A stretch of 34,906 bases of DNA. Source: a virus. Shown in pieces: positions 2,143-34,906 of the stretch (the first letter of the stretch is position 1; the number at the start of each line of letters is the position of its first letter). The notes beneath the pieces were generated by a model, which saw nothing but the letters and a program-made list of their open reading frames with translations, did not search any database and was not told where the DNA came from. Both the position numbers and the translations under genes were made by a program. The stretch covers positions 1 through 34,906 of IMG/VR virus record IMGVR_UViG_3300009502_000127, one strand, 5' to 3'.

Positions 2143-2161
2143 TATAAGAAGGATATACGCT

Positions 2162-2554: not shown

Positions 2555-2574
2555 TAGGAACAGGAATAGATATT

Positions 2575-4260
2575 GTGAGTAACACCTTTGTCGTGGTTGC
2601 ACCAAGAGATTTGTCTACCTTTGCCTCATGGCCCGTGCCTTTTGATGGCGTGATTGGCCTTGCCATTCGTGAGGATGATCCAGAAAATATCACGGTGGCT
2701 ATCCCAGATCCAGCAACAGGCATCGTGCATATCTATGATGTGTCTGGTGTAGAACTCCATGCCATACCTACGGGCGCTATTGGCATTACCGATATACAAT
2801 ATGTGAGCCATAAGTATTATCTTAGTTGTCCTACCGCAATTTATGTCTTTAGTGATTCCTGGGCACAGATGATCACCTATCAGCAGTGTCTCTGGAGTAT
2901 AGAAGGCGCAAGTGATGGTACTACACCAAATACCTTACCACTCCCTACCTATCCACCAGGATTTGTCTTCAGTACACCCTATAGTGATGTATGGAATATT
3001 CCCATCTATATTACAGGATTTTTGGCCTTTGCTGATGGCACCATCCTGTACCAATTAAGCCCTATTCGTGCATCAAGTAGTCTCAATCCCCTCGATGTGA
3101 TCATACCAGTGAGTGGTGATCCCTATATCCTGCCCAATGCCGCAGGGTATGTCGCAGGCCAATGGGGTACTACAGGCTATTATACCGGTGGAGATATTCC
3201 CTGTGGTATTACATGGGGCGATGGAGCCTATTATTATAGTATTACCTCCACACCCTACTATGGAGATCCTGGTATCACATCACCTACCATCACGTATTTA
3301 AGTACACATGTCGTCTATTTGGATAGTTTCTTAACACATGGTACGGGCACTGTCTGGTATACCTCAATCGACGAAGGCACACTCTTACCGACATGGGTAG
3401 AAGCGCCTATAGCACTTGTCTCGAGTGCCGTCGCTACAGATGCGTCTATTGCCTTTATTGGCGTGGAGTGTAATGCGGCCACCAGTGATTATTCCTCCCT
3501 GTATTCACGGCCATTTAACACGGCGATATCTTCGCTCACAGCCCCCTTTGCATCCTTTTCACCAGATACTAGTTATAATAGTATCAAAGGTGTTGCACTC
3601 AATGAACATGGTGAAGTCTACTATGCTAGTGGTAATGCGGGTAAAGCAACAGATCTTTTTGCTCCGAATACATTTGACATACAATATGTGAGTTATGCAT
3701 TAACACAGTCAAGATATTATAATGTGACACAACATATCTTTGGCACAGATTATACGCATCCTGCACTTACCCAGATAGCGTCACTGCCTCTTGGATATCC
3801 CTATGATACAGGCATACCTTATGCAGACTTAGTGTCCGAGAGCAAAAGTGCCTTACCATATATGGGGAGTTGGGCACATATTACATGGTGTCAGACAACG
3901 CAACAAGTCTTTGGTATCTTCTTTGCACATGTCTCTCCACGTTGTGGTAATGCCTCAGCTATGAATATTGTCTCTACGACTATCGATCAGACGGGCAAAC
4001 TTCATAAAGCATGGATCGAGGTTGAAACAGCACCAAATTGGGTAAATTATAATAATCGTAATGCTGATGATACACTTCACAGTAGTACTGTATCTGTCCA
4101 TATTAATGATGGCACAATACCAGTAAGTAATGTCTGCATAAGTTGTGATCATAGAGATGTACTCACGATTAACTATGAAGAGCCTGCCTATAACTCTCGT
4201 GTACGAACAAGTACGAGTTACGATGGTGGCAATTCCTGGACACTTACTCCTATAGCCTAA
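2575..4260 (+). CDS. Distal tail / adsorption protein with C-terminal Asp-box
   Basis: A 561-aa beta-rich protein. I choose the GTG at 2575 because coding character begins there and an AGGAACAGGAAT purine tract lies just upstream. The same frame is open to an ATG at 2290, but that stretch overlaps the previous gene and translates to implausible Arg/Ser/Tyr-rich sequence. The protein is rich in Gly, Tyr, Thr and aromatic residues with recurring short strands (for example IGVECNAATSDYSS, KGVALNEHGEVYYASG), consistent with a beta-propeller-like fold. It ends in TSYDGGNSWTLTPIA, which matches the Asp-box/BNR motif (S-x-D-G-G-x-x-W) of sialidase-like propellers. No catalytic residues can be assigned. 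Its place between tape measure and fibre genes suggests a tail-tip or host-recognition role. The next small gene ends with the same Asp-box. Confidence 0.7.
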   Translation: MSNTFVVVAPRDLSTFASWPVPFDGVIGLAIREDDPENITVAIPDPATGIVHIYDVSGVELHAIPTGAIGITDIQYVSHKYYLSCPTAIYVFSDSWAQMITYQQCLWSIEGASDGTTPNTLPLPTYPPGFVFSTPYSDVWNIPIYITGFLAFADGTILYQLSPIRASSSLNPLDVIIPVSGDPYILPNAAGYVAGQWGTTGYYTGGDIPCGITWGDGAYYYSITSTPYYGDPGITSPTITYLSTHVVYLDSFLTHGTGTVWYTSIDEGTLLPTWVEAPIALVSSAVATDASIAFIGVECNAATSDYSSLYSRPFNTAISSLTAPFASFSPDTSYNSIKGVALNEHGEVYYASGNAGKATDLFAPNTFDIQYVSYALTQSRYYNVTQHIFGTDYTHPALTQIASLPLGYPYDTGIPYADLVSESKSALPYMGSWAHITWCQTTQQVFGIFFAHVSPRCGNASAMNIVSTTIDQTGKLHKAWIEVETAPNWVNYNNRNADDTLHSSTVSVHINDGTIPVSNVCISCDHRDVLTINYEEPAYNSRVRTSTSYDGGNSWTLTPIA

Positions 4261-13895: not shown

Positions 13896-15149
13896 TTAAC
13901 GTCTTCTGGCCTCTTTCCGATGCTTGCCATCCTTCTGTTTGTCATTTGTGTTGTACATCTTATAGCCTGACATTCGATCGGCAAATTGCTGCTGTTTCTC
14001 TGCCCTGCGAAGCTTCTGTGCTACAAATTCTAATCTAGCTTCCTTAGCGGCTTTGTTCTTATCCTTATTCTGTAGATAATATTGCTTAAGCTCCTCCATA
14101 TCTAATTTAAGTTTAGCCTCACGTAATTGTAGCCTTTCTTTTTTATTTTTAGCAGACAATTTTATATTAGCAGCATCTCCTGTTGGATTAGCATAGTGCA
14201 TGTTTCTAGCATCAAAATGTCCAATAGATTCTGGTACTGTAAGAGCATCGGCAAATTGCCATCCTATATAGAGTCTCCATGATAAGGTGTTATATCGTAC
14301 ACAGCAGAGTTTATGTTGGCTCCAATCCCACAGTGTATGTGTTAATCCTCTGTATGTATATATTACTGATTGTCTCTTAGGTAGTAATGCATGTAGTTGA
14401 TGTATATCTACCCATATGCTTTCATCAGGATCAAAAAGGGTGGAGTTTTTTATAATATAATTCGTGCCGTCATAGCCAGATTGTATGCTCCAGTCTCTAA
14501 AATCATTATAACTATTGGATGATGTCCAGATAGTGCTATTTTTGTGGATACGCTGCCAGATTCTATAGAGTCTTGACTTTCTGCCAATGCCTATTGTGCC
14601 ATTCTCCGTTTCTAATATTGCTGTACCAGGGGTATCTATAGGGGCTATTAGGGAGGGTGTTGTCAGGGCATCTGCAATAGGCCAGTTATGTTGCAGTCTC
14701 CACTTGAGTTGACTATAACTTATTATACATCTATCATCAAGGCTCCATTGTGATATTGTTTTCTGCTCTCCATTATATGAGTAAAACTTATATTTTGCTC
14801 GGAGATTTTTAACTTGTAGACAACCACAACTCTTTGTCCCATAGGTAAGATCAGTAAGCAGATAATGATTTACTACCTTCATATTACCACAGGAGCACTG
14901 ACAGAGGTAATTATAATCTTGTAATTCTTTCATGACTGTGAGTTGCCCATACATAGCACCTATTTCTCGATGTTGTAGGTATGCTACAGGCCTAATGGCG
15001 TCAATAACTGACATTTTACCTTTCTGTAATCTTTTACGCAGTGTCTCATACTTAATATTAATATGTGGTAAAGCAGCCAACTCTCTAATAGTTAGCTGCT
15101 CACCATTATATTCATATCTTGTAGTTGTATATCTGTTAGTAGTACTCAT
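13896..15149 (-). CDS. Zinc-ribbon protein with three HTH modules (degenerate HNH/AP2-type phage family)
   Basis: A 417-aa protein. Domains: HTH module 1 at ~12-55 (YNGEQLTIRELAAL ... DAIRPV); a zinc ribbon at C83-x-C85-x-C87-G with S107-C-G-C110; HTH module 2 at ~122-165 (YNGEQKTISQWSL ... ADALTTP); an F-R-D-W segment at ~217-245; HTH module 3 at ~264-307 (YRGLTHTLWDWSQ ... ADALTVP). A long basic coiled-coil tail follows (~325-417, KEARLEFVAQKLRRAEKQQQ). The zinc ribbon and F-x-x-W...N-G-Y segments are those of phage HNH/AP2-type homing-endonuclease relatives. I see no H-N-H triad, so it is more likely a DNA-binding protein than an active nuclease. It follows its paralogue at 15151 by one base (TAGTATG). 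Confidence 0.7.
   Translation of the reverse strand: MSTTNRYTTTRYEYNGEQLTIRELAALPHINIKYETLRKRLQKGKMSVIDAIRPVAYLQHREIGAMYGQLTVMKELQDYNYLCQCSCGNMKVVNHYLLTDLTYGTKSCGCLQVKNLRAKYKFYSYNGEQKTISQWSLDDRCIISYSQLKWRLQHNWPIADALTTPSLIAPIDTPGTAILETENGTIGIGRKSRLYRIWQRIHKNSTIWTSSNSYNDFRDWSIQSGYDGTNYIIKNSTLFDPDESIWVDIHQLHALLPKRQSVIYTYRGLTHTLWDWSQHKLCCVRYNTLSWRLYIGWQFADALTVPESIGHFDARNMHYANPTGDAANIKLSAKNKKERLQLREAKLKLDMEELKQYYLQNKDKNKAAKEARLEFVAQKLRRAEKQQQFADRMSGYKMYNTNDKQKDGKHRKEARRR
14422..14445 (+). repeat. GATC-core element inside a minus-strand gene
   Basis: TCATCAGGATCAAAAAGGGT on the plus strand (P form). On the coding strand it is Y form and encodes L-F-D-P-D-E-S. Confidence 0.65.
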
Positions 15150-15150
15150 A

Positions 15151-16050
15151 CTATTCTTTAGCTACTTTCGCTGATCGAGATTTACTTACTTTATCCTTTG
15201 ATTGCGCCATAAGAGGCATCGTTTTTGCGATAGATTTTAATAATATAAGTTCGGGCACTTTATAATATTTGCATCGTTTCCACTGTGGATATTCGTAGTT
15301 ATGGAGTAATCCTTGTTTGGTAATCCAGTGTAGTCGAGATTTGCCTACATCAAGATATTCGAGAGCATCTTTCCGGCAGCAGCACCAGCAGTTAAACGCA
15401 TCACTATAAAATGGGGCAATATATGGCATGGCATTATTACTACGTGGTGGGGTAGTAATGGCCTCTTCGGCTGGGATGCCATAGAGTAGCCTTTCTATTA
15501 ATGTTGTTTCTGCAATACAACATCGAGGATCATGGCTCCACTGTACGGCTGTCTTTGATTCTCCAAAGGCATAGATAAGTACTGTGTTAGATTTATTACT
15601 TAATATTTGTTCGGATGTTCCAAAGTAACAATTATCTTGATCAGAAGGGAGGGTAATATTTTTGCGGCCAAGTTTTAGTCCCTGTCTCCACCCATTATCG
15701 TAGGCCCATAGTTTAAATGCTGTATAACTTTCCCATGGACTTGTATGTACATTATATACTTTATTAGCTTGTAGCATCTCGTTGTAGGCTATATATAATG
15801 TGTGTCGTCCACGAGCCATTGATCCATCACCATGTATTGTTTTTGATTTTATGACTGTATCTGATCGTAGACATCCGCAGCTTTTTGAGTGCCCATTTCT
15901 CAGCGACGCAGCCTGCACTGATTTTATATTTGGATTTCCACAAGCACATGTACAGTTGTATGCTTGCCGCTTATTTTTTGTATCTCGGCCAATAACGATC
16001 CAACGGCCATACACTTCGCCAGGATTAATTTCTGTATGCTTTCTATTCAT
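15151..16050 (-). CDS. Zinc-ribbon / HTH DNA-binding protein, paralogue of the downstream gene
   Basis: A 299-aa protein. The zinc ribbon is at C33-x-C35-x-C37-G with S57-C-G-C60; an F-K-L-W-A-Y-D-N-G-W segment (~112-121) takes the place of the AP2/HNH region; an HTH module lies at ~158-201 (GESKTAVQWSHD ... AEEAITTPP). A C-terminal winged-helix-like DNA-binding segment (~224-272, RKDALEYLDVGKSRLHWITK) resembles excisionase/MerR-type HTHs. The last residues are basic. There is no HNH triad. A good ribosome-binding site (AAAAAGGAAATT) precedes the ATG on the minus strand. It is likely a sequence-specific regulator. It forms a two-gene unit with the 417-aa paralogue. Confidence 0.7.
   Translation of the reverse strand: MNRKHTEINPGEVYGRWIVIGRDTKNKRQAYNCTCACGNPNIKSVQAASLRNGHSKSCGCLRSDTVIKSKTIHGDGSMARGRHTLYIAYNEMLQANKVYNVHTSPWESYTAFKLWAYDNGWRQGLKLGRKNITLPSDQDNCYFGTSEQILSNKSNTVLIYAFGESKTAVQWSHDPRCCIAETTLIERLLYGIPAEEAITTPPRSNNAMPYIAPFYSDAFNCWCCCRKDALEYLDVGKSRLHWITKQGLLHNYEYPQWKRCKYYKVPELILLKSIAKTMPLMAQSKDKVSKSRSAKVAKE
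15632..15653 (+). repeat. GATC-core element inside a minus-strand gene
   Basis: TTATCTTGATCAGAAGGGAG on the plus strand (P form). On the coding strand it encodes T-L-P-S-D-Q-D-N, the same reading phase as the other coding copies. Confidence 0.7.
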
Positions 16051-16176
16051 GATGATAATTTCCTTTTTGAGTATTCTATATTTATAGTACCCAATCTAAA
16101 TCAGTCTTAAACATGCCTCATTAGAATTTATTGAAGAATTTTATAACTGCTAGTTAGTACGTCTGTTGATAACTTC

Positions 16177-16203
16177 TCCACCTTTTCTGATCCAGACTTA
16201 AAG
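16177..16203 (-). repeat. GATC-core element, Y form
   Basis: CACCTTTTCTGATCCAGACT then TAAA. Paired with a P copy at 16303-16328 across ~100 nt of non-coding sequence. Confidence 0.85.
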
Positions 16204-16302
16204 CTATAGGATACTATCTACTGTTACTCGATATCCCATAGCTCTTTAATATAATTATAAAGTACTGGATTACCGAGTATCTGTAGTAGTATTCCTGCAG
16301 TC

Positions 16303-16328
16303 TTTAGTCTAGATCAGAAAGAAGGGTA
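16303..16328 (+). repeat. GATC-core element, P form
   Basis: TTTAGTCTAGATCAGAAAGA then AGGGT. No gene starts within reach downstream. Confidence 0.85.
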
Positions 16329-16393
16329 TTATATTCACTTCTACATGTACTATTCGTAAATTATAGAATTAGTAGCTCTCACTCTCCAAAACA

Positions 16394-16539
16394 ACTATTT
16401 AATATTAATAGATTATTAGTAATACTAATACTTACTAAAATAGTAAGAAATGAAATACTGTCACTTACTATTTAATATTAATAGATTATTAGTAATACTA
16501 ATACTTACTAAAATAGTAAGAAATGAAATACTGTCACTT
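16394..16539. repeat. Perfect 73-bp tandem duplication with internal dyads
   Basis: Units 16394-16466 and 16467-16539 look identical. Each contains the palindromes TTAATATTAA, ATTAGTA-A-TACTAAT and CTTACTA-AAA-TAGTAAG. The pattern is like iterons or paired operators. Confidence 0.9.
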
Positions 16540-16647
16540 AATTAAACTATGCGAAACACTATAAAATTTCACGGGTTTTGCATAATAAAAGCATATTTCT
16601 TATTTCTCGTCATTTCTAGCATCTAAATTAACAGAGACATCCCAAAG

Positions 16648-16706
16648 CCCATCTTTTAGTTTTTGGAGCGTCCTATAGTACCTACAACATCTAGAAATGC
16701 ATATCC
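16648..16706 (+). repeat. Dispersed ~60-nt repeat, copy C
   Basis: It runs from CCCATCTTTT to TAGAAATGCATATCC. Copy B at 17663-17721 has the same two ends with the same internal spacing (46 nt from CCCATC to GAAATG), and copy A at 17511-17580 is looser. The segment 16671-16702 matches 2461-2492 inside a gene at about 30 of 32 positions. Confidence 0.75.
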
Positions 16707-16740
16707 CATAGCATCACCAGGACTACAGAATTAATTTACA

Positions 16741-16764
16741 GCCCTCTTCTGATCCAGACTAAAA
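16741..16764 (-). repeat. GATC-core element, Y form
   Basis: GCCCTCTTCTGATCCAGACT then AAAA, in the non-coding block. Confidence 0.85.
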
Positions 16765-16933
16765 GAACATAAGCAACTTATCATATCTAGGCAGACATAG
16801 TACCTAGGCAAAAACACTCCCCTGCGCCTGTGCCCGTGCGTTACTATAGACGTGTGCGTGTTACTATATACGTGCGTGTTACTAACCATAGGTAATAGTT
16901 ATATTTTATGTTTATAATACTATAATCTAAAAC

Positions 16934-17007
16934 CTAAGGTTTTAATATAATTCTAGTATTATATTCTATTCTAAGGTTTTAATATAATTCTAGTATTATA
17001 TTCTATT
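16934..17007 (+). repeat. Perfect 37-bp tandem duplication
   Basis: The unit begins CTAAGGTTTTAATATAATTC and occurs at 16934 and 16971. AT-rich and non-coding. Confidence 0.9.
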
Positions 17008-17191
17008 CTTCAGTATTAGATAAGCCTTAGAATTTACTAGCGTAAATCCTAAGGTGGTTACTACGTAACCAATTAGAGTATAAGTAATTACTATGTTACG
17101 TACGAGGCCTGGAACCCCAGTGCCTTCATTTTTCTGTTTTAGCATAGGATGCTTGCGCCCATCAAACACCTAGGGTGGTAATTCGCCTAAT

Positions 17192-17290
17192 ATTTTAATC
17201 ACGATCAGAAAGGAGGGTGAGGAATTCATTGGCTGCGAATGTCTGATAGGCAGTAAATATACTGCTGCTCTTTCTGATCCAGACTAAAAA
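17192..17290. repeat. GATC-core element pair: P form 17192-17219, Y form 17267-17290
   Basis: The P copy includes AGAAAGGAGGGTGAGG, a perfect 10-base complement of the usual 16S anti-SD tail, yet no convincing gene follows. The Y copy is GCTCTTTCTGATCCAGACTA. The pair brackets ~47 nt. Confidence 0.85.
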
Positions 17291-17313
17291 CTACAGAAGA
17301 GCGTCGCTATAGG

Positions 17314-17340
17314 TTTTTATATCACGATCAGAAAGATGGC
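17314..17340 (+). repeat. GATC-core element, P form
   Basis: TTTTTATATCACGATCAGAA then AGATGG, 23 nt after the previous Y copy. No gene downstream. Confidence 0.8.
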
Positions 17341-17435
17341 TTAAAGTTATATCTCCTGATGATTAGATACTTCTGCTGGAGAGAGTTCGGCGATTACTAC
17401 GCTTCAGTTTTATCAGTAGAAGCAGGCTTCCCTCT

Positions 17436-17619
17436 CAGATTTAAGAAATTCTTCAAACACTCACAATATACGACGTATAAATTTTAAATAGCACTAGAGT
17501 GGCACTTACACCCATCTTTTGCATCCATGCCGCCCAAGAGGCCCTCCAGTAGCAGTGGACTTCGCAAGAAATGCATATCTACAGGACGGCTAATCCCCAG
17601 ATTTAAGAAATTCTTCAAA
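17436..17619 (+). repeat. Duplicated imperfect palindrome, copies 17436-17457 and 17598-17619
   Basis: Two identical 22-nt boxes starting CAGATTTAAGAAATTCTTCA lie 162 nt apart. TTTAAGAA and TTCTTCAAA are nearly reverse-complementary, as in a protein-binding site. Confidence 0.8.
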
Positions 17620-17662
17620 TACAACTGTTATAGCCACAAAAATAGTGATGGATGACACATTC

Positions 17663-17721
17663 CCCATCTTTTAGATTTTGGACTGTCTCAGCATACCTAC
17701 AACGTCTAGAAATGCATATCT
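17663..17721 (+). repeat. Dispersed ~60-nt repeat, copy B
   Basis: CCCATCTTTTAGATTTTGGA ... ACCTACAACGTCTAGAAATG ... CATATCT. It shares ends and spacing with copy C at 16648-16706, and its central ACCTACAACGTCTA block also occurs in the gene at 2162-2554. Confidence 0.75.
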
Positions 17722-17827
17722 CGTCCAAAGTCTAGGGCACAAACAGCAATAGTGGCAGGATTACCAGCCTTCCCGAATCTTATGATTCAGAGTCCAGTCC
17801 AAAAATATTGGACATAATACATAGCAA

Positions 17828-17874
17828 ATATTCCTGACTCTTTTAGTAAGAAATACCTAAGAAATCAGGAATAT
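17828..17874 (-). terminator. Long inverted repeat downstream of the minus-strand operon
   Basis: Perfect 10-bp arms, ATATTCCTGA (17828-17837) and TCAGGAATAT (17865-17874), lie 41 nt past the stop of the last minus-strand gene. Just inside is a near-duplicate ATTAGTTTTGCTNATATT. It may be a terminator for that operon, though the T-run is short. Confidence 0.5.
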
Positions 17875-17914
17875 TAGTTTTGCTCATATTCTAAATATTA
17901 GTTTTGCTAATATT

Positions 17915-18256
17915 TTATTTAGATTTAGAAGCTCTAATTGCCATAAGTCTAGCACCATTTGCCTTATCGGCTTCTATCTGTTTAGGAGTTCGTTCCTTCT
18001 TTTCTTTCTTCACAGATCTTTCATTCCATAAGGCACAGCCAGTATTCATACAATCTCTAACTTCTGAATCTACCCAACTACTGCAGTCCATGCATTTCCT
18101 TCCAATAGCATCACGAGTTCCATGTTTTTGCCCATCAGCATATTTACCAGAACGGAAAGGCCAAAGTGGACAGTTATTAGCAGTACATGCTGTAACCTCA
18201 CTAGAACTATCTAGGCAGCACCACAAACATTTTTTTCTAATATTTATCATAGACAT
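17915..18256 (-). CDS. Small protein with two Cys4-type zinc-binding repeats
   Basis: A 113-aa protein with two copies of a motif frequent in small phage proteins: residues 9-35 (KKCLWCCLDSSSEVTACT, then NNCPLWPFR) and 54-80 (RKCMDCSSWVDSEVRDCM, then TGCALWNER). The putative zinc ligands are C10, C13, C24, C29 and C55, C58, C69, C74, each closed by C-x-L-W. The C-terminal 30 residues are strongly basic (KKEKKERTPKQIEADK). Related phage proteins carry the consensus C-L-D-C-C...E-V-R-x-C...C-P-L-W-P-Y-R; their molecular role is not established. It is the last gene of the minus-strand operon, and its ATG directly abuts the previous stop (TAAATG). Confidence 0.7.
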   Translation of the reverse strand: MSMINIRKKCLWCCLDSSSEVTACTANNCPLWPFRSGKYADGQKHGTRDAIGRKCMDCSSWVDSEVRDCMNTGCALWNERSVKKEKKERTPKQIEADKANGARLMAIRASKSK

Positions 18257-18451
18257 TTAATTTTCCCCCAAGTTACTTAATCCACGAAGTATAACTGGTT
18301 GTGTTTTCCACTCATCATGACTGTCATAATATCCCATCCAAAACTTGCCCTCGAAAGCTATATCAAACCAATCTCTAGCCTCTAAGATAGTTTCGGCCTC
18401 GGCAGTAGCCACTACCAAACTTTGTTCATTTATCAATTCGTAGGTTCGCAT
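18257..18451 (-). CDS. Small hypothetical protein
   Basis: A 64-aa protein I do not recognise: MRTYELINEQSLVVATAEAE, then an alpha/beta stretch with aromatics (DWFDIAFEGKFWMGYYD), ending LSNLGEN. The composition suggests one small domain, with a strand followed by a helix (AETILEARDWF). Its ribosome-binding site derives from the GATC element at 18461-18486, which lies inside the end of the upstream gene: on the minus strand GGATCAGAAAAGGGTGAGG precedes the ATG. Start and stop abut both neighbours, so it is firmly embedded in the operon. Confidence 0.65.
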   Translation of the reverse strand: MRTYELINEQSLVVATAEAETILEARDWFDIAFEGKFWMGYYDSHDEWKTQPVILRGLSNLGEN

Positions 18452-19291
18452 TTAATTTTCCTCACCCTTTTCTGATCCAGATAATACTTTAAAATCTAAT
18501 CTATTATGTACAGTAGGTAATACTGCAATCACATCATCCCAGAGATAACCACGATTCACTGACTGTAGTATACCACACTTATGTAGTCTCCACAATCGAT
18601 TCCTACCAATATGTAGATAGGCTAATGTTTCGGCCCGTGTAGCATAGCCTTCGCCGGAAAAATTAAGTGATAGTACCCCAGTACCTGCATATGACTTATT
18701 TGGTGATACTGGTGTTGTCATTGCCTCATAAAGTGGCATACCTGATTTAATGCGTTTTGTCAATAACTGTTCGCTCACTATGCAGCGAGAGTCTCTTCCC
18801 CATGCAGCCAATGATTGTGTAGTACCCTCTAGTGTTAATAATATGGTATTCTTTTTATTGCTATTCATGCCCGAAACATCAGTGATATATGCATTTGCTA
18901 TAGAAAATGGCTGTGTGGTATCTTTCCGCAAGATTCGCATGCCACTAACATAATTATTGGCGCATGTCCAGTTATAAAAATCTTCGAAGGTTGTTGTGTT
19001 CTTCCATCCACTATTCGTCCAAACTCTATAGAGTGGCGTGTCAGAACCTCCATGCTTATAGTTACAAGCAGATATAGCTTCTTTTCGAAGACAGCCGCAA
19101 CTGCGTGTATGTGCACCAGTGATATGTCGTCGAGTGACAACGACATCTTTTCCACAATCGCAATGGCAGAGATAGGTTGTGGTAGTATTACGTATGCCCA
19201 CTGCAATTTTGGGTAATACTTCTACAATTACCAATCTGCCATAGCGATCATTTACTTGTGGATCTGGGTATTTTGTTGGCGTATTGCTCAT
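18452..19291 (-). CDS. Zinc-ribbon / HTH DNA-binding protein, third paralogue
   Basis: A 279-aa protein. I prefer the ATG at 19291 over the one at 19303 because GGAGGT lies four bases before it (ATGGAGGTACAAATG). Zinc ribbon C42-x-C44-x-C46-G with S64-C-G-C67; an F-Y-N-W-T-C-A-N-N-Y segment at ~105-114; an HTH module at ~153-194 (EGTTQSLAAWGRD ... YEAMTTP); and a C-terminal excisionase-like HTH at ~217-262 (TRAETLAYLHIGRNRLWRLH). The order matches the 15151-16050 protein. No HNH catalytic triad is visible. It ends V-L-S-G-S-E-K-G-E-E-N, encoded by a GATC element. It is probably a regulator of viral or host DNA. Confidence 0.7.
   Translation of the reverse strand: MSNTPTKYPDPQVNDRYGRLVIVEVLPKIAVGIRNTTTTYLCHCDCGKDVVVTRRHITGAHTRSCGCLRKEAISACNYKHGGSDTPLYRVWTNSGWKNTTTFEDFYNWTCANNYVSGMRILRKDTTQPFSIANAYITDVSGMNSNKKNTILLTLEGTTQSLAAWGRDSRCIVSEQLLTKRIKSGMPLYEAMTTPVSPNKSYAGTGVLSLNFSGEGYATRAETLAYLHIGRNRLWRLHKCGILQSVNRGYLWDDVIAVLPTVHNRLDFKVLSGSEKGEEN
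18461..18486 (-). repeat. GATC-core element, P form on the minus strand, coding
   Basis: On the plus strand CTCACCCTTTTCTGATCCAG; on the minus strand it encodes V-L-S-G-S-E-K-G-E and provides the AAAAGGGTGAGG ribosome-binding site of the next gene. Confidence 0.85.
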
Positions 19292-19451
19292 TTGTACCTC
19301 CATTTTCTTTTATCCACTGTTCTAACTTATATTGTGTCGTTAATAATCCAAATCGAGCAGAATCTAGTAGGGCGTGTATCAGTAATGTTCGCATTTCATA
19401 GGAGACAACATCATATTTGCCATGAGATTTAACTGTTGTATTAGTCATCAT
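19248..19451 (-). CDS. Small hypothetical protein
   Basis: A 67-aa protein beginning M-M-T-N-T-T-V-K-S-H-G-K-Y. The ATG at 19451 overlaps the end of the upstream gene (AATGATGACTAA), so the pair is likely coupled. The same frame is open upstream but would read through that gene's end. The body is a helical segment (SYEMRTLLIHALLDSARFGL) followed by a polar tail. It overlaps the start of the zinc-ribbon gene by 44 nt. A P-form GATC element (minus strand) ends six bases before its ATG and supplies AAAAGGGG. I do not recognise a family. Confidence 0.55.
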   Translation of the reverse strand: MMTNTTVKSHGKYDVVSYEMRTLLIHALLDSARFGLLTTQYKLEQWIKENGGTNEQYANKIPRSTSK

Positions 19452-19683
19452 TTTCTTGCCCCTTTTCTGATCCAGATAAAACAGTAGTAGCATAATAATT
19501 AGGAAATAGATATGCAAGTAGAGAAGGAGCACTATCAATCGCATGTCTATCTATATCAGTCATATTCGTCGCATCAACAATAACAATAGATTTTGCTCTG
19601 CCACATAATGTAGCAAATGCTGTAGTACAGGCAGCATCCCATGAAGAGTTAGAATTGCATGATAGCATAGTAGGGGTAGTCAT
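19441..19683 (-). CDS. Small hypothetical protein, first gene of the minus-strand operon
   Basis: An 80-aa protein with a good ribosome-binding site (AAAAAGGAAAACACATT before the ATG). It contains an alpha/beta-looking core (KSIVIVDATNMTDIDRHAID) and ends T-V-L-S-G-S-E-K-G-Q-E-N-D-D. The V-L-S-G-S-E-K-G block is identical to that at the end of the zinc-ribbon protein two genes downstream and in both cases comes from a GATC element, not from homology of the proteins. Function unknown. It faces the Ntn-hydrolase gene across a 170-bp divergent promoter region. Confidence 0.55.
   Translation of the reverse strand: MTTPTMLSCNSNSSWDAACTTAFATLCGRAKSIVIVDATNMTDIDRHAIDSAPSLLAYLFPNYYATTVLSGSEKGQENDD
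19458..19481 (-). repeat. GATC-core element, P form on the minus strand, coding
   Basis: On the plus strand GCCCCTTTTCTGATCCAGAT then AAAA. It encodes V-L-S-G-S-E-K-G and precedes the ATG at 19451 by six bases. Confidence 0.85.
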
Positions 19684-19853
19684 AATGTGTTTTCCTTTTT
19701 GTGGCTCATATATGTATGGCCAATATTAATATACCCACTATTAATATAGTCTAAACATATATCAAATTATTATTTTATTATATGTTTAGCCATTATATAA
19801 AGTGGGAATACTATTAGAGCAGGTAGGGTAACAGATAAAAGGAAATTAATAGC
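19684..19853. promoter_or_regulatory. Divergent intergenic region with an operator-like dyad at 19751-19789
   Basis: This 170-bp AT-rich gap separates two divergent units. It holds a perfect 11-bp inverted repeat, CTAAACATATA (19751-19761) and TATATGTTTAG (19779-19789), with a 17-nt spacer, and a nearby direct repeat of TATTAATATA. It suits a regulator site controlling both directions. I could not fix -35/-10 boxes with confidence. Confidence 0.6.
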
Positions 19854-20420
19854 ATGACATGTATAGTTGGTATAGAAGAAGATGGAAATGTATACATTGG
19901 TGGAGATAGTTTAGGTTCTAATGCTGACTGGCATAAGACAGTACGAGCAGACGAAAAGGTATTTCGCCGAGTACAGCCAGACACTGATGAGCCTTATATT
20001 TTTGGATTTACGACAAGCTTTCGTATGGGACAATTATTACGTTATAGTCTTTCTATTCCTGCACGTCATACAAAAGTAGATATATTTGAATATTTGGCAA
20101 CTGACTTCATAGATGCCTGCCGTACTACTTGGAAAGACGGAGGATTTGGAAAAATTGAGAATGGAGAAGAAATTGGAGGAACATTTTTGCTGGGTTATCA
20201 AGGGAAGTTATATACGATTCAATGTGATAACCAAATAAGTAGGAGTGTTCTGACATTTGCTGCCTGTGGCTGTGGCGAATACTATGCGCTAGGATGTCTC
20301 TATGGACTTAGTAGTATTGGCACACTAGCACCAAAAGAGAGAATAACCAAAGCACTGGAGGCTGCAACCATGCATAGCGCAGGAGTAGGTTCTCCATATC
20401 ATATTGTGAGCCTGCATTAA
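19854..20420 (+). CDS. Proteasome-like (Ntn hydrolase) peptidase
   Basis: A 188-aa protein resembling the single-chain Ntn-hydrolase/20S-proteasome-type proteins found in some phages. It opens MTCIVGIEEDGNVYIGGDS. After Met removal Thr2 would be the nucleophile, Asp18 in G-G-D-S matches Asp17 of proteasome beta subunits, and Lys35 in R-A-D-E-K-V-F matches Lys33. Further family features are FGFTTSFRMGQLLRYSL (~50-66), EIGGTFLLGYQGKLYTI (~107-123), the G-C-G...A-L-G segment and a C-terminal S-A-G-V-G-S-P-Y-H-I. HslV and proteasome relatives hydrolyse peptides as oligomers; whether phage copies are active proteases is not known to me. It has a good ribosome-binding site (AAAGGAAATTAATAGC) and is its own unit, divergent from the small-gene operon. 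Confidence 0.8.
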   Translation: MTCIVGIEEDGNVYIGGDSLGSNADWHKTVRADEKVFRRVQPDTDEPYIFGFTTSFRMGQLLRYSLSIPARHTKVDIFEYLATDFIDACRTTWKDGGFGKIENGEEIGGTFLLGYQGKLYTIQCDNQISRSVLTFAACGCGEYYALGCLYGLSSIGTLAPKERITKALEAATMHSAGVGSPYHIVSLH

Positions 20421-21144: not shown

Positions 21145-21729
21145 ATGAGTACTACTATAACAGATACTAGCATACAACATAGAACACTAGATATGAAGCA
21201 TCAACAGTTTGCAACTGAGTATGTGAAACACTTCAATGCCACGAAGGCCTATAAAGCAGTCCATCCTGGAGTAACTATAAAAACTGCTGGACAATTGGGT
21301 TGTCAAACACTAAAAGATCTTAGAGTACAAAATATCATCCAATCATTACTCAAAGAACAAGATGTCACAGCAGAAATGGTAATCGCTGAGCTCAAACGTA
21401 TCGCCTTTTGTCGTGCTACTGATATTGTAAGTTGGGATAACGCTGGTAATACTACTTTAATACCCTCATCAGAAATTAGTGAAGATGTTGATGCATCAGT
21501 CCTTATCATTGCACGTCCGGGACGGCAGGGGCAAACGATTGAGATCAAACGTGAGAATAAACTTGCTGCACTAGAAATTCTGGCTAAATATACAGGAATC
21601 TCTAATAAAACGAGTGTTGAACTGAGTGGTAAAGTTGATGTCGCACTCTCATTTGCTGATTTAGCAGTACTTGCCTCTGATACTACGGATACTACACCGA
21701 CATCTGGATCAGAAATAGAGCATAAATAA
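21145..21729 (+). CDS. terS: Terminase small subunit
   Basis: A 194-aa protein of the terminase small-subunit type (Terminase_2-like). The recognisable part begins at residue ~17 (MKHQQFATEYVKHFNATKAY), followed by AGQLGCQTLKDLRVQNIIQS, the N-terminal HTH that binds the packaging site. A central segment (VTAEMVIAELKRIAFCRATD) starts the oligomerisation region, and ENKLAALEILAKYTGISN is the typical C-terminal helix of this family. Two starts are possible: 21145 or 21193 (the MKHQQ codon). The last residues (T-S-G-S-E-I-E-H-K) include a GATC-core element. TerS recognises the phage DNA and loads the large subunit encoded next. Confidence 0.85.
   Translation: MSTTITDTSIQHRTLDMKHQQFATEYVKHFNATKAYKAVHPGVTIKTAGQLGCQTLKDLRVQNIIQSLLKEQDVTAEMVIAELKRIAFCRATDIVSWDNAGNTTLIPSSEISEDVDASVLIIARPGRQGQTIEIKRENKLAALEILAKYTGISNKTSVELSGKVDVALSFADLAVLASDTTDTTPTSGSEIEHK
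21702..21720 (+). repeat. GATC-core element, truncated P form, coding
   Basis: ATCTGGATCAGAAATAGAG near the end of terS, read as T-S-G-S-E-I-E. It matches the left half of the element; the SD-like half has decayed. Confidence 0.6.
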
Positions 21730-21897: not shown

Positions 21898-23280
21898 GTG
21901 GGAGCCGTAAATAAATTAGAAGCGCAAAATATATTATCCCGCTCCATTTCTGATCCAGATTTCTTCCTTAGAAATATATTAGGTAAGGATGCATGGCAAA
22001 AACAAATTGAGATTATGGAATCCGTACGAGATAATAAACGTACTAGTTGTAGGAGTTGCCACGGAATTGGAAAAACTGCTTGTGCTGCTTGGACTATTCT
22101 CTGGTTTCTATATACGCATCCAGATAGTGTTGTCGTTAATTTATCTCCGACATGGAGACAGACAGAACAACTCATTTGGCGTGAAATCCGATCAGCGCAT
22201 GCACAGACAAAATATCCATTAGGCGGTACACTCCTTAATACACGACTAGACTTAGGCCCCACATGGTATGCTATAGGTGTTAGCGCCGATAAGCCAGAAA
22301 ATGTGCAGGGATATCACGCAAAGAGTGGACATATCCTCTTCGTTTATGATGAAGCCAGTGGTATTGATCAGGATATCTTTGATGCCAGTCAAGGATCACT
22401 TGCCAGTGAAGGCAGTAGGCTTTTACTTATTGGTAATCCTACACAAACAAGTGGTGAGTTTTACGAATCCTTCCGATCACCTCTCTACCACACCATACAT
22501 ATCTCCGCATTTGATACCCCCAATTTTACAGATCCTGATACGACACACTTCCGTCCCTATCTTATTACGCCTGATTGGGTGGAGGATAAACGTAAGGCGT
22601 GGGGAGAAGATAGTCCACTCTGGGATTCTAGAGTTCTTGGTGACTTTCCTAGAAGTTCTGACGATACTCTTATCTCATTAGTTGATATTGAAAAGGCCCA
22701 GCTAAGATTCTCAGAACCATTAGACGCTACTAAGCCTATACGACTCGGAGTGGATGTTGCTAGGTTCGGCAGCGATAGCACGATTATCACAAAAAGTCAA
22801 GGACTCCATGCCTCAGTCATAAAAACCATTACGAAGATGGATACGATGGTGGTGAGCGGAGAGGTAGTAGATGCCTCTCGTAGCACAGGAGCCACACATA
22901 TTAATGTGGATGTAGGCGGCTTAGGTGCTGGCGTTGTTGACAGATTAACCGAGTTAAAAATGCCTGTACTCGGTATTAATAGTAGTAGTAGTCCTATTGA
23001 TAAAGAAGCCTATATTAATTTGCGAGCCGAACTCTATTGCAATCTGAGAGATGAATTTAAAGCTGGCACCATTGCTATTGATCCTCATGATAAAGAATTA
23101 GAGGCCGAACTCTCATCGCTTAAATATAAATTTACATCTGCGGGTAAATATCAGATTGAGTCTAAGGAAGAAATTAAGAAGCGCAGTGGTGGAAAATCTC
23201 CAGATAGAGCCGATAGTCTCTGCTTATCACGTTATGCCAAAGTAAAACCAAGCTTCAAGTTCCATTGGCCTCAGGGATAG
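21898..23280 (+). CDS. terL: Terminase large subunit
   Basis: A 460-aa DNA-packaging motor. The start is a GTG with AAAAGGA seven bases upstream. ATPase: Walker A CRSCHGIGKT (51-60), adenine/arginine region LSPTWRQTEQ (~82-91), Walker B ILFVYDEA (146-153), coupling motif LLLIGNP (175-181). RNase H-like nuclease: D286 in RLGVDVARFGSDSTII, D338 in INVDVGGLGAGVVDRL, and D436/D439 in SPDRADSLCLSRY. It translocates DNA into the prohead and cuts it. Length and motif order are complete. A Y-form GATC element lies near the N-terminus (residues 14-22, RSISDPDFF), in front of the ATPase domain. Confidence 0.93.
   Translation: MGAVNKLEAQNILSRSISDPDFFLRNILGKDAWQKQIEIMESVRDNKRTSCRSCHGIGKTACAAWTILWFLYTHPDSVVVNLSPTWRQTEQLIWREIRSAHAQTKYPLGGTLLNTRLDLGPTWYAIGVSADKPENVQGYHAKSGHILFVYDEASGIDQDIFDASQGSLASEGSRLLLIGNPTQTSGEFYESFRSPLYHTIHISAFDTPNFTDPDTTHFRPYLITPDWVEDKRKAWGEDSPLWDSRVLGDFPRSSDDTLISLVDIEKAQLRFSEPLDATKPIRLGVDVARFGSDSTIITKSQGLHASVIKTITKMDTMVVSGEVVDASRSTGATHINVDVGGLGAGVVDRLTELKMPVLGINSSSSPIDKEAYINLRAELYCNLRDEFKAGTIAIDPHDKELEAELSSLKYKFTSAGKYQIESKEEIKKRSGGKSPDRADSLCLSRYAKVKPSFKFHWPQG
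21941..21963 (-). repeat. GATC-core element inside terL, Y form in the sense strand
   Basis: GCTCCATTTCTGATCCAGAT then TTC matches the consensus closely and encodes S-I-S-D-P-D-F. Confidence 0.85.
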
Positions 23281-23398: not shown

Positions 23399-24820
23399 AT
23401 GGGTAATATATCAACCATGAGTAATAACTGGTTCTCTAACATATTTCATAGAAAAAGTCAAGTACCTGCTCTTATAAGTACTGCAGCAACACCTGTAAGT
23501 CTTAAATCTATTACAGGTGACGTTGGTGCAAATATTATCTTTAACAATGCTGATGGTACATTTCCAGGTGCAACGGCATGGGGCAATCTTGATAATCCTA
23601 GTGTTATTTCTACCAACTTTTTCGCCTATTATAACGAGGGTTATTTAGCCAATCCTATCGTCTATGCCGCCATAGAATCTATTGCATGGGCCATGGCAGG
23701 GATTCCGCTGAGAGTCTATCGAAATACGGGCCAGACAGCAGATATTAATCCAGAGATTCAGAACCATCCACTCGCCAAGCTCTTACGTAGCCCTAATCCT
23801 GATTGGGGTATGTCAGAAATTATCTATCAGGCTGCCGTATCCTATCAAGTCTGTGGTAATGCCTATATCCATGTCATTGGCCCAGATATTAAAGGTACAG
23901 GTAATCCCTGTATCATTGATACAGTGCCTGCCTGTTATATGCTGCCTATTCCGGCTGCCAATCAGCGAACAGTGGACTACTATAGTTATGCCATTCCATC
24001 AGAGACTGATGCCCACATGTTGAAAGATACGATCTGTCACATTCGAACGTATAACCCCAAATATCAGTATTTTGGCCTTCCACCGCTCATGGCCGCTGCC
24101 AAATCTATTGATCTCAATAATGAAGCACGAACGTTTAACTATCACTATATGAAGAATAATGGTGTACCAAGTGGCATCCTGAGCGTAGATCCTGAGATTA
24201 CATTACCAACTGATGAAGATTTAGAACAGATTCATGATGATGTCAAGCTACATTGGCAGGGAAGCCTGAATGCCAAAAGTCCAGCAGTCATTCCGCCCGG
24301 ATTTAAGTATGAAAAGATTGGCTCTGAACCCGAAGATATGTGTTGGAAAGAAACGCTAGAAACATCAGCAGCCGAAATCTGCAATGTATTACAATTCCCC
24401 GTTGTGCTCCTATCCATCAAGGATACTACCTATAATAATTATGCGACGGCACGTAGAGCCTTATATCAAGAAACAGTCATACCATTACTCAAAAGATTCT
24501 GCGGCCAACTCTCACGTCATATGCAGTCACGCTATCGAGATCCAGATCTCTATATTGATTTTCGTGTGGAAGATATTGAGGCTCTCAGCGTTGATGCTGA
24601 TCTTCAAGCCGAAACATTAGCCAAGAGCAAATTCCTCACTGTCAATGAAATGCGAGAAGCGACAGGCATGGGCCCAATTGCTTCGCCTGCCGGTGATCAA
24701 CTGATTATGCCCACTGGGAGTAATACACTGGAAAATATTCTCAATGGTGTTGCGGCCCCTAAGCTGTCTCCTGCCATAAATTCTACAGCTATAGCAGATT
24801 CCCTCATAGAGAATATATAA
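23399..24820 (+). CDS. Portal protein (HK97-type)
   Basis: A 473-aa portal: the ring of twelve subunits at the capsid vertex through which DNA enters and leaves, and to which the terminase and connectors bind. Family signatures include the N-terminal V-Y-A-A-I-E-S-I-A-W-A-M-A-G-I-P-L-R-V-Y segment, HPLAKLLRSPNPDWGMSEI, VCGNAYIHV, ICHIRTYNPKYQYFGLPPLM, ARTFNYHYMKNNGVPSGILS, the helix ICNVLQFPVVLLS, and the C-terminal LTVNEMREATGMGPI block. The length is normal. Alternative start at 23417 (MSNNWFSNIF), which a promoter overlapping the first ATG may favour. The stop directly abuts a small downstream ATG. Confidence 0.92.
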   Translation: MGNISTMSNNWFSNIFHRKSQVPALISTAATPVSLKSITGDVGANIIFNNADGTFPGATAWGNLDNPSVISTNFFAYYNEGYLANPIVYAAIESIAWAMAGIPLRVYRNTGQTADINPEIQNHPLAKLLRSPNPDWGMSEIIYQAAVSYQVCGNAYIHVIGPDIKGTGNPCIIDTVPACYMLPIPAANQRTVDYYSYAIPSETDAHMLKDTICHIRTYNPKYQYFGLPPLMAAAKSIDLNNEARTFNYHYMKNNGVPSGILSVDPEITLPTDEDLEQIHDDVKLHWQGSLNAKSPAVIPPGFKYEKIGSEPEDMCWKETLETSAAEICNVLQFPVVLLSIKDTTYNNYATARRALYQETVIPLLKRFCGQLSRHMQSRYRDPDLYIDFRVEDIEALSVDADLQAETLAKSKFLTVNEMREATGMGPIASPAGDQLIMPTGSNTLENILNGVAAPKLSPAINSTAIADSLIENI

Positions 24821-25122: not shown

Positions 25123-26151
25123 ATGAAGACACCCATACAAGATAAAAAGCAAGTCTTTGCTCCCATGATGCTCAAGAAGTCTGATGATGGTATTGACGGC
25201 ATCATCGCAGGAATTGCAAACTGTACTGAAATGGTAGACTTAGGTGATGATAGAATCCTGGCCGGTGCCTTCAATAAAACACTGATTGAGAATCATTATA
25301 AGTTTATGTTGAATATTGATCATATGCGTGGACTAGAATCTGAGATTGGTGTTGGTTTTTTCTCGATGAAGGGTAATGATCTTATTCTTGAGCGAGGCAT
25401 TTTAAATCTTAATAAGGCGCATGTTACTCGGGAAATATTACCTACACTCATACAACGCCAAGAATATGGTATTCCTGCTGGACTCAGCATTGAATATATG
25501 CCAGTCAAGTTTCGGTTTGTTGAAGAGAATGGTGTCTCTATTCGTGAAATTTCAGAACTCAAACTCTATAAAATTTCTATTGTGGATAATCCCATGTCTC
25601 AGAATGCTGATGGCACTCGGGGCTCATTCCTTGATAGTATTAAGTCATACAAAGAAGGTGTACATTATAAAATGGATACTCCGACGACTACAGAAATAAA
25701 AGTTGAAGAGACAACTACAGCAGAACTTACACACAAACAAGCAAAGAAAGCAAAGAAAGCTGCCAAAATTGCAAAACTTTTGCTTCAGAATAAAGAAATA
25801 ATTCCATCCCCTATTTCTGATCAAGATAAAGACATCAGTACTACTAGTATAGTAGAACAGAAAGTCGGTAAACCTATTAAGAAAGAAACACTTGATGCCT
25901 GTATGAAATCTATACATGAATTAGGACTCGATCTTACAGGATATAAAGCGGCCCATAAAGCCTATCATAAATCAGTATCTGCACATATTGCCAATCTGAA
26001 GTCTATCCTTCAGCCGTCAACCACTCCAGATGATAGTCAGGAGCCGAATGACACTGATCCCGATACAACGGAAGATTGCGGAAAATCCGCAGTATGTTTG
26101 CCTACGATGGCAGAACTTATCCTTGCTGAACTTCAGAAGCAGTCAGCCTAA
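25123..26151 (+). CDS. Prohead maturation protease (HK97/S78-type), with scaffold-like C-terminus
   Basis: A 342-aa serine protease that cleaves the capsid N-terminal domains during maturation. Visible features: GIIAGIANCTEMVDLGDDRI and LAGAF (~27-50), the catalytic His region FMLNIDHMRG (H67), and the Ser motif GIPAGLSIEYMP (S122), followed by the ELKLYKISIVDNPMSQNA strand that closes the fold. Residues ~190-342 are Lys/Glu/Thr-rich and low complexity with helical segments (KQAKKAKKAAKIAKLL), which could act as an internal scaffold fused to the protease; no separate scaffold gene is visible. A GATC element is embedded in this tail (PISDQDKDIS). It lies directly upstream of the capsid gene. 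Confidence 0.88.
   Translation: MKTPIQDKKQVFAPMMLKKSDDGIDGIIAGIANCTEMVDLGDDRILAGAFNKTLIENHYKFMLNIDHMRGLESEIGVGFFSMKGNDLILERGILNLNKAHVTREILPTLIQRQEYGIPAGLSIEYMPVKFRFVEENGVSIREISELKLYKISIVDNPMSQNADGTRGSFLDSIKSYKEGVHYKMDTPTTTEIKVEETTTAELTHKQAKKAKKAAKIAKLLLQNKEIIPSPISDQDKDISTTSIVEQKVGKPIKKETLDACMKSIHELGLDLTGYKAAHKAYHKSVSAHIANLKSILQPSTTPDDSQEPNDTDPDTTEDCGKSAVCLPTMAELILAELQKQSA
25806..25830 (-). repeat. GATC-core element inside the protease gene, Y form in the sense strand
   Basis: ATCCCCTATTTCTGATCAAG then ATAAA, read as S-P-I-S-D-Q-D-K in the variable C-terminal tail. Confidence 0.8.
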
Positions 26152-26204: not shown

Positions 26205-27449
26205 ATGGGAAATGAATTCAAAGCTGCAGAAAAAGAAGCCAAGCAGCTCGCTATTGAAATTGCGGACAAAGCCAGTCATGCTGATGTAGAGCAAGTAAAG
26301 ACTGATCTGTTAGCTGCACTGGACACTAAGTTCGCCGAGCAGAATCGTGTTGCTGCTACTACTGGTACAACTCCTTCTAAAGCCGATGTTGCCAAAGAGA
26401 TCAAAGCCCTCATGGGTAATTCTGATCTTCGTACCACTATTGAAGAAGACAAAGCCTATGCCGCTTATCTCTCTAAGGGCATGAATCAAATGACACAGGC
26501 TGAAGTGAAGAGCTTAGGTTCTTATGCCGTGTCCGACGGCGGAATTTTAGTGCCACCTGAAGTTCGTGCTCAAATCATCTATCGTTTGCTCAACGTTGTT
26601 AATGTTCGAAATCTTGCCACCATTATCACCACCAATCCTGGTGTAGATGTCAGTTTCCCAACATTAGGCTTCTCAGTAACAGACTCCTGGAAGCAAGAGG
26701 GTGAGACTGTTGCTGTGGATACATTATCTGCACCATTTGGTAAGAAATCCCTACATACCCACAAGCACCAGAATATCTTCAAAGTTCCCAATCAACTCAT
26801 CAATTCTTCAATCGTCAATGTTGAGTCCACAGTGGTTGATTGGTATGTCAAGAATATTGCCCTCATTGAAGAGAATAAATACTTTAATGGTAATGGACAA
26901 GGTGTTCCTACTGGCTTACTGTCTAAAGATGCTGCTGGCAATCTCATCCTACCATCCGTGAATGCTGCAACGAGTGCTTCCGTGCCACTGTCCATTGCTG
27001 ACGTGCTTTCTCTTCCTTATCAGATTAAGGCCCAGTATCGAAACAAGGGTGTTGGTAAGCCTGCATTCATGGTTCCCCGTGGTGGAGTGTCCTATTTGCG
27101 TTCATTACTCGCCACGACTGGACAACCCATCTGGAGTGATATGCTCACTGCCGTTTCTGGACAGCCTCCTATGTTAGCCGGTTATCCTGTCTATGAAACC
27201 GAATATATTCTGACTGCTCTAGGAACTGTGACATTAAATAACTATGCAAGTTCAGTGACTGGTGATCCTCTCATGATCTTTGGTGACTTCAGCTACTACT
27301 GGATTGCTGATAGTACCCAACTCGAAGTGTTCCGTCTCAATGAACTGTATGCTGCCACTGATGAAGTTGGCTATCGCATCACCAAATGGACTGATGGCGC
27401 TCCAGTGGTTGCAGAAGCCTTTAGCGTTCTACTACGTAAGACTGCCTAA
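26205..27449 (+). CDS. Major capsid protein (HK97 fold)
   Basis: A 414-aa protein of the phage_capsid/HK97 family. Residues ~1-100 form a charged helical delta-like domain (AAEKEAKQLAIEIADKAS ... VEQVKTDLLAALDTKFAEQN) presumably removed by the upstream protease. The shell domain starts near SDGGILVPPEVRAQI, followed by VRNLATIITTNPGVDVSFPT, the E-loop region with W-K-Q-E-G-E-T and FGKKSLHTHKHQNIFKVPNQ, NKYFNGNGQGVPTGLLS, PAFMVPRGGVSYLRSLLATT and the C-terminal YRITKWTDGAPVVAEAF. GGGAGAAATTAATC precedes the ATG. Codons such as ATC, ACC and GCC are more frequent here than in its neighbours, consistent with high expression. I see no basis to infer covalent cross-linking. Confidence 0.93.
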   Translation: MGNEFKAAEKEAKQLAIEIADKASHADVEQVKTDLLAALDTKFAEQNRVAATTGTTPSKADVAKEIKALMGNSDLRTTIEEDKAYAAYLSKGMNQMTQAEVKSLGSYAVSDGGILVPPEVRAQIIYRLLNVVNVRNLATIITTNPGVDVSFPTLGFSVTDSWKQEGETVAVDTLSAPFGKKSLHTHKHQNIFKVPNQLINSSIVNVESTVVDWYVKNIALIEENKYFNGNGQGVPTGLLSKDAAGNLILPSVNAATSASVPLSIADVLSLPYQIKAQYRNKGVGKPAFMVPRGGVSYLRSLLATTGQPIWSDMLTAVSGQPPMLAGYPVYETEYILTALGTVTLNNYASSVTGDPLMIFGDFSYYWIADSTQLEVFRLNELYAATDEVGYRITKWTDGAPVVAEAFSVLLRKTA

Positions 27450-33727: not shown

Positions 33728-34906
33728 ATGTCAGATACTCCAGGACTCAATATCAAGGTAAATGTTGATAGCTCGGCTGTTCCAGGACAATTAGCCGCTA
33801 TACAAGCAAGCATTAAAACAGCACAATCACAAATAGTCGGTAGTGCTACTATGGCTATTGATTCTGCTATGGGTGCTGGTTTTGCAAAAGCACAGGCCGG
33901 ATTTTCTGGATTGAACAGTTCTGCAGGTATTGCCGCTAGCGGTGTCAACACGTTAGGCAGTGCCCTGGGTGGGATGCGAAGCCATCTCTTAGAAGCCGGT
34001 GTGGCGATAGGTGTCCTTGTAGGTGCATTCGAAGGTATCATCCGCATAGCCAAGGAAGCGCAAAGCATCCAGAATAATGCCATGAGACTTGGTGTGAGCA
34101 CTGAGCAGTATCAACGTATGGCCGGTGTGGCTCAACAGATGGGCATCGATCCTGAAGCCTACGTCAAGGCCAAGCGCACCTTGGAAAAGCAGCAACAGGC
34201 TGCAAGTACCGATTCGACGGGCTCTGCGGCACAGGCCTTTCAGGCTGTTAACCTTAATCCGCTTGCTCCAAACTTTAGATCGATAAAGGATCTCCCACAA
34301 CGGATAATGCGCTATATCAATGAGCACCCCGATGATACGTCAGCCATTGCCGCATCAGATACACTGCTGGGCAGAGGCTCAATGAGCCTGCGTCCTTTGG
34401 CTAGTATGTCTGATGCCGAGATGAAGAAGGCCGAGTCGTCTGTGACGGTCCAATCACCCGAAGTGCTTGCCGCCAACGCCAAACTTGCAAAAAGCATGGT
34501 GGAGTTAAACGAAAAGTTTACCGTTGCCGCTGCCACCGTTGTCAGTGAACTCGCACCCGATATCGAAAAACTCTTTGGTGATATTACGAAAGGACTACCC
34601 CAACTCGAATCGTTGGGCAGTGCCCTCGTCAAAGTGGCCGATGTCCTTGTGTCTATTCCGTCCGGGCTTATCACGTTTGGTGCCGAGCTCTATATCATCT
34701 ACAAAGCGCTCAATGCCTTTAAGGGGTTAGCGACTGCAGCGACACATGCGCTGTCCCCCTACGTTGGCGTTGGCACTGCCGCTGCCACTGGTGAAGGTGC
34801 CGTTATTGGAGCCGCCGTCGGTGGTGGGCTGCGTCAAGGCAGTGCGGAGGCACGCACAGCAGCAGATGTCACACAAGACAGGGCCATCGCAACACGTGCC
34901 GCAGCA
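33728..34906 (+). CDS. Tape measure protein, N-terminal part (runs off the right end)
   Basis: The ATG at 33728, preceded by AAGGATACCATATA, starts a frame that stays open for 393 codons to the last base and continues at base 2 of the window, once the 13-base overlap is merged, for a total of about 1065 aa. The N-terminus (MSDTPGLNIKVNVDSSAVPG ... LAAIQASIKTAQSQIVGSAT) has the beta-strand-plus-helix opening of many tape measures. A hydrophobic segment lies at ~85-105 (LLEAGVAIGVLVGAFEGIIR), and further helical, Ala-rich blocks include LITFGAELYIIYKALNAFKG. The segment LGVSTEQYQRMAGVAQQMGI is a frequent tape-measure motif. Base composition is GC-richer than in the flanking genes. Confidence 0.9.
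   Translation, partial: MSDTPGLNIKVNVDSSAVPGQLAAIQASIKTAQSQIVGSATMAIDSAMGAGFAKAQAGFSGLNSSAGIAASGVNTLGSALGGMRSHLLEAGVAIGVLVGAFEGIIRIAKEAQSIQNNAMRLGVSTEQYQRMAGVAQQMGIDPEAYVKAKRTLEKQQQAASTDSTGSAAQAFQAVNLNPLAPNFRSIKDLPQRIMRYINEHPDDTSAIAASDTLLGRGSMSLRPLASMSDAEMKKAESSVTVQSPEVLAANAKLAKSMVELNEKFTVAAATVVSELAPDIEKLFGDITKGLPQLESLGSALVKVADVLVSIPSGLITFGAELYIIYKALNAFKGLATAATHALSPYVGVGTAAATGEGAVIGAAVGGGLRQGSAEARTAADVTQDRAIATRAAA

Follow-up and report, generated by a model that had tools for sequence, protein, structure and literature searches.

Genomic context of the locus

The stretch of viral DNA under analysis (34,906 nucleotides in full, hereafter the window) carries a gene whose product is very probably a proteasome-type (HslV/BPH-like) Ntn hydrolase of 188 residues, with an ATG start preceded by a purine-rich, ribosome-binding-like AAGGAAA. 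The gene lies just upstream of, and on the same strand as, a block encoding both terminase subunits, the portal, an S78-type prohead protease and the major head protein, and a gap of 725 bp separates it from the terminase genes (Table 1). On its other side, a small open reading frame (19441-19683) is arranged divergently with about 170 bp in between, followed upstream by three minus-strand HNH endonuclease genes within 13896-19303, while the interval 16051-17903 (~1.85 kb) holds no open reading frame of 60 residues or more.

A preliminary description of this DNA had assigned the gene its own divergent promoter region. The divergent layout is borne out and the promoter is not supported, since sigma-70-like matches in the gap (7, against 9.4 expected from shuffles) show no excess. 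The AT-rich imperfect palindrome located between the divergent genes is a possible candidate operator.

Table 1 Features of the Ntn hydrolase locus and the adjoining packaging and head genes. A1 and A3 denote the alignments of 15 and 77 homologues described in the text.
Feature	Position	Strand	Evidence
AT-rich imperfect palindrome, 93 bp	19724..19816	.	two 46-nt arms, 74% complementary; DNA fold z=-2.1
Predicted proteasome-type (HslV/BPH-like) Ntn hydrolase gene	19854..20420	+	PHROG profile, alignments, AlphaFold2, Foldseek
Thr2 codon (predicted catalytic Thr1 once Met is removed)	19857..19859	+	invariant in A1 (15/15) and A3 (77/77)
Asp18 codon (Asp17 equivalent)	19905..19907	+	invariant in A1 and A3
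Lys35 codon (Lys33 equivalent, here one residue later)	19956..19958	+	invariant in A1 and A3
Terminase small subunit gene	21145-21729	+	PHROG 51, E=5e-22
Terminase large subunit gene	21898-23280	+	PHROG 2, E=4e-41
Portal protein gene	23399..24820	+	PHROG 12, E=7e-67
S78-type prohead (head maturation) protease gene	25123..26151	+	Pfam PF04586 above curated cut-off; PHROG 80, E=6e-7
Major head protein gene	26205..27449	+	PHROG 10, E=4e-52

The two ends of the window (1-13 and 34894-34906) share the 13-bp sequence ACGTGCCGCAGCA, and when they are joined a single tape-measure reading frame of 1069 aa results. On both counts the record, though catalogued with those lacking end repeats, is probably complete, a circular or permuted genome of about 34,893 bp. 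None of the window proteins scanned was recognised as a replication, integrase or lysis protein or as an AAA+ unfoldase, HslU included, a host HslU being possible; no Rfam families or tRNA were found in the window. In the tail region (2093-4260), the frames 2093-2554 and 2290-4260 overlap, and as the former is protein-like and ends where the latter turns protein-like, the true start of the latter probably lies downstream of 2290. The large terminase subunit finds its best match (40%) in a Methanosarcinales virus, while matches to the remaining head proteins come from bacterial phages; searches with terminase or portal returned no close relatives of the window virus.

Protein family and predicted fold

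The window protein is matched over residues 1-187 by PHROG 1040, 'peptidase HslV family' (E=6.3e-20). A homologue of this type is encoded in 180 of the 50,697 GenBank phage records, and a single pattern scan gave 254 IMG/VR stretches with a homologue. Given these hundreds of homologues and the PHROG match, the window protein belongs to a widespread family already named in phage databases; the rarity implied by the preliminary description is wrong, and the protein, being of a known kind, adds one member to the phage proteasome homologues described before. Queried singly, it matched nothing in Pfam and NCBIfam and gave no confirmed match in the viral contigs scanned. Its homology to Pfam Proteasome is visible only via its relatives, 11 of 15 phage homologues matching that family. 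Two phmmer matches to gamma-hemolysin in the PDB (E=1.1) were discarded as chance.

Conservation was assessed in two alignments. A1 holds 15 sequences of phage homologues collected by plain tblastn, in which the window protein is 28-49% identical to the 14 others. A3 holds 77 homologues that a pattern scan, demanding one of two conserved peptides, collected from viral as well as bacterial contigs; as A1 was too diverse to yield patterns, a 4-row alignment was used for this instead. Because the patterns favour some N-terminal residues, the conservation of Thr2 and Asp18 in A3 is partly selected, and A1 is the unbiased test. The dN/dS ratio between relatives was 0.03-0.16 in every computable pair, about one quarter of the pairs giving no ratio as their synonymous sites were saturated, and such values point to strong purifying selection on the family.

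The AlphaFold2 model of the monomer, predicted from the 77-row alignment (pLDDT 95.9, pTM 0.91), is an alpha-beta-beta-alpha sandwich with proteasome beta/HslV topology, having four helices (56-64, 77-95, 142-152 and 160-174) arranged in two pairs. The best solved match by Foldseek was BPH 5ovt (E=4e-11, TM 0.79), followed by HslV (E=1e-9) and then by proteasome beta and Anbu, and the BFVD library holds the same fold in many phages. A profile of the 15 homologues searched against the PDB retrieved HslV 1m4y (E=5.5e-14), BPH 5ovs (E=8e-11) and then proteasome beta. The comparison with HslV and proteasome beta structures proposed in the preliminary description therefore returned a BPH/HslV-type fold and no fold foreign to Ntn hydrolases, and the identity proposed there is supported jointly by the predicted fold, the profile matches, the conserved residues and the purifying selection.

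Catalytic residues

The only invariant columns of A1 are M1, T2, D18, K35, G139 and G141, whereas in the pattern-selected A3 the columns T2, D18, K35, G51 and G139, among others, are invariant. An apparently intact Thr2/Asp18/Lys35 triad had been noted beforehand; these residues are indeed present, and their invariance in both alignments is far beyond chance. Thr2, in particular, whose absence among phage homologues would have spoken against the assignment, is retained in all 15 sequences of A1. The accompanying claim, that the triad falls at the proteasome spacing of Thr1/Asp17/Lys33, is correct for the aspartate and not for the lysine, which in the window protein comes one residue late. Counting Thr as 1, the exact Asp17/Lys33 spacing is found in 57/77 members of A3 and Asp17/Lys34 in 13/77, namely in the window protein plus a dozen relatives. 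The glycine equivalent to the oxyanion Gly47 (Gly51) is kept in 77/77 sequences of A3 and 14/15 of A1. The window protein further has the motif G139-C140-G141, and this Gly-Cys-Gly occurs in 70/77 of the subfamily (A3) and 7/15 of the diverse phage homologues; the HslV loop at the corresponding site is Gly-Ser-Gly. The position of proteasome Asp166 is not conserved in the family and is occupied by Met173 in the window protein.

The extra residue ahead of Lys35 and the lost Asp166 position are what an inactive relic, or a scaffold with a proteasome fold, might display. This explanation is very improbable, as the triad is invariant, dN/dS lies far under 1 in the relatives and the 17/34 spacing is shared with the dozen relatives counted above.

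Some homologues depart from the compact form at their termini. Short leaders (MKTT-TC, MMQTS-TC) precede the catalytic Thr in L046 8001, L093 3754 and L095 8001, where cleavage would be needed, and C-terminal extensions are present in L006, L007 and L025 (proteins of 388, 327 and 257 aa). Propeptides were reported only in proteasome beta and HslV in a 2021 survey (PMC8665760).

Comparison with known proteasome homologues

Phage-borne proteasome homologues were described by Fuchs, Alva and Lupas in 2021 as PPH, AAH and CPH, of which PPH was termed the first true viral member and AAH was noted in many phages (PMC8665760). Phage genome papers label such genes HslV or BPH (PMC7823757, PMC8953757), and no HslU was detected in the phage genome of PMC7823757. 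With AAH and PPH the window protein has in common a group I (HslV/BPH-like) fold, an occurrence in phages, rhizobia and actinobacteria, and a compact build without the C-terminal H5. Membership in PPH was rejected, PPH being ~140 residues long and without helix H2 whereas the window protein has 188 residues and four helices. The spread of the window family is compatible with that of the AAH cluster, whose reference is WP_035979212, and it is plausible that the window protein is AAH-like.

The beta-proteobacterial proteasome homologue BPH (5ovs/5ovt), although the closest solved fold and likewise endowed with an N-terminal Thr, is bacterial, is only 16-20% identical and went unmatched in the single-sequence search. 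HslV (ClpQ) is akin by profile homology and by the same triad, whereas the window family has its own FTxSFRMGQ motif and GCG in place of GSG, and HslV sequences are not close relatives; HslV proper was rejected, no HslU having been recognised among the window proteins scanned. Full-length homology extends to the phages of PHROG 1040 (among them Geobacillus virus E3 gp065, Moorella phage MTATph1 and the T5-like Salmonella phage S124), whose aligned proteins share the invariant Thr/Asp/Lys and glycines. These aligned phages are, however, 92-385 kb in size and carry the gene mostly among early or metabolic genes, as opposed to its place before the packaging block of a ~34.9 kb genome.

A proteasome-like protein of this kind could also be a specific effector serving host takeover or counter-defence. 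It would cut one host protein, for instance an immunity or transcription factor or a competing protease, or in another form act as a ligase or amidase like connectase. Such proteins can gain narrow functions, the ligase connectase being an example (PMC8665760), and the wide distribution in phages along with purifying selection would suit such a role. We consider it improbable in either form, since the model is compact and BPH/HslV-like, lacking the long helical insertion of connectase, and no defence-linked neighbours stood out among the loci examined.

Gene order in relatives

Viral contigs <70 kb often have the Ntn gene within the head block and on the same strand. The order terminase-Ntn-portal is seen at seven loci (L017, L019, L047, L052, L057, L083 and L084), portal-Ntn-protease at L048 and L082, protease-Ntn at L088 and Ntn-protease-capsid at L074, while at L025, L045, L096 and L100, as in the window, the gene is just upstream of the terminases. 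For L096 and L100 the candidate lysogens are Paenibacillus solani and Metabacillus bambusae, respectively. When 130 immediate neighbours were tallied by PHROG, portal, minor head, terminase and head-protease families led the list, with several unrelated terminase families beside the Ntn gene.

Of 45 testable loci, that is, those with comparison genes, 15 have a head gene next to the Ntn gene. The expectation, taken from the remaining non-hallmark genes at these loci, is 7.4 (p=0.0003, an optimistic value because some of the loci are related). The head-adjacent label undergoes 14 changes on the family tree, at least 5 of them forced by well-supported branches, and its scatter implies that the arrangement is not a single inherited block. 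The repeated placement of the gene within the terminase-portal-prohead protease-capsid block of small phages, or immediately ahead of it, is a new observation: in the literature searched, most subscription papers lying outside it, the head-block association is unreported, and no paper was found that connects proteasome homologues to terminase and portal. This gene order favours a late, virion-assembly-linked role in small phages and gives some support to one of the functions suggested beforehand, the processing of viral proteins.

Other surroundings occur in larger replicons. The Ntn gene is accompanied by thymidylate synthase (thyA) and DHFR genes in the large phages Geobacillus E3 and S124, and by ribonucleotide reductase and PhoH genes in large Pseudoalteromonas and Vibrio phages. 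Relatives at 47-49% identity reside on large Rhizobium and Mesorhizobium plasmids (including L113 and L115) outside any visible prophage; in the two rhizobial plasmids inspected, the gene is surrounded by metabolic genes and no phage genes lie near it. This setting outside prophages suggests domestication. In view of the metabolic contexts in large phages and of these plasmids, head assembly cannot be the sole role of the family.

The main rival explanation is general proteolysis late in infection, by which a chamber would degrade host or misfolded proteins and so recycle amino acids or relieve proteotoxic stress, the head-gene placement being merely a site that tolerates extra genes and is expressed late. 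It draws on the co-location with nucleotide-recycling genes (RNR, thyA, DHFR and PhoH) in unrelated large phages, on the degradative peptidases that are the nearest folds, and on the HNH endonucleases, typical inserted genes, that often adjoin the Ntn gene. Against it, the Ntn gene adjoins head genes about twice as often as the remaining non-hallmark genes at these loci do, and the adjacency recurs beside terminase families that are unrelated. We hold general proteolysis to be a serious contender, albeit one we do not favour.

Discussion

The following account is proposed for the window protein, taken as a group I peptidase of the proteasome type, from the HslV/BPH branch. Host methionine aminopeptidase, for which Met-Thr is a good substrate, is predicted from the Met-Thr start to remove Met1 and to expose Thr2 as the nucleophile, which would be activated by Lys35 and Asp18, with Gly51 and the Gly-Cys-Gly loop likely making the oxyanion and Ser129-like site. 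If BPH and HslV are a guide, the subunits would probably assemble into a ring chamber that hydrolyses peptides, an assembly we judge reasonably likely. As no viral unfoldase was recognised among the proteins scanned, the enzyme may, like BPH, take small or unfolded peptides as substrates, or may borrow a host ATPase.

The protein would most likely be made late, together with the products of the packaging and head genes that follow its own gene, and could cleave or clear peptides during head assembly, for instance misfolded structural protein or fragments of scaffold or delta domain. Since the window has its own S78 capsid protease, the Ntn hydrolase is no replacement for the prohead protease and would rather be a helper to that separate enzyme. 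The 725-bp gap before the terminase genes and the unconserved Asp166 position weigh against the proposed account. On balance, we assign a probability of about 0.45 to a head-assembly-linked role in the window phage.

In the literature searched, phage proteasome homologues are catalogued, though no experimental function was found for them. The window offers a compact case, a genome of ~34.9 kb with few recognisable enzymes beyond the Ntn hydrolase, and gene order narrows the functional guess to a late and head-linked one in small phages. A broader proposition, speculative and on present evidence unlikely, is that proteasome-type threonine peptidases are a recurrent, unrecognised head-assembly accessory of tailed phages, recruited repeatedly into terminase-portal-protease-capsid blocks, where they would trim or clear scaffold, portal or MuF-like proteins alongside the classical prohead protease. 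If a proteasome-type chamber does take part in capsid maturation, another class of protease would join those of head assembly.
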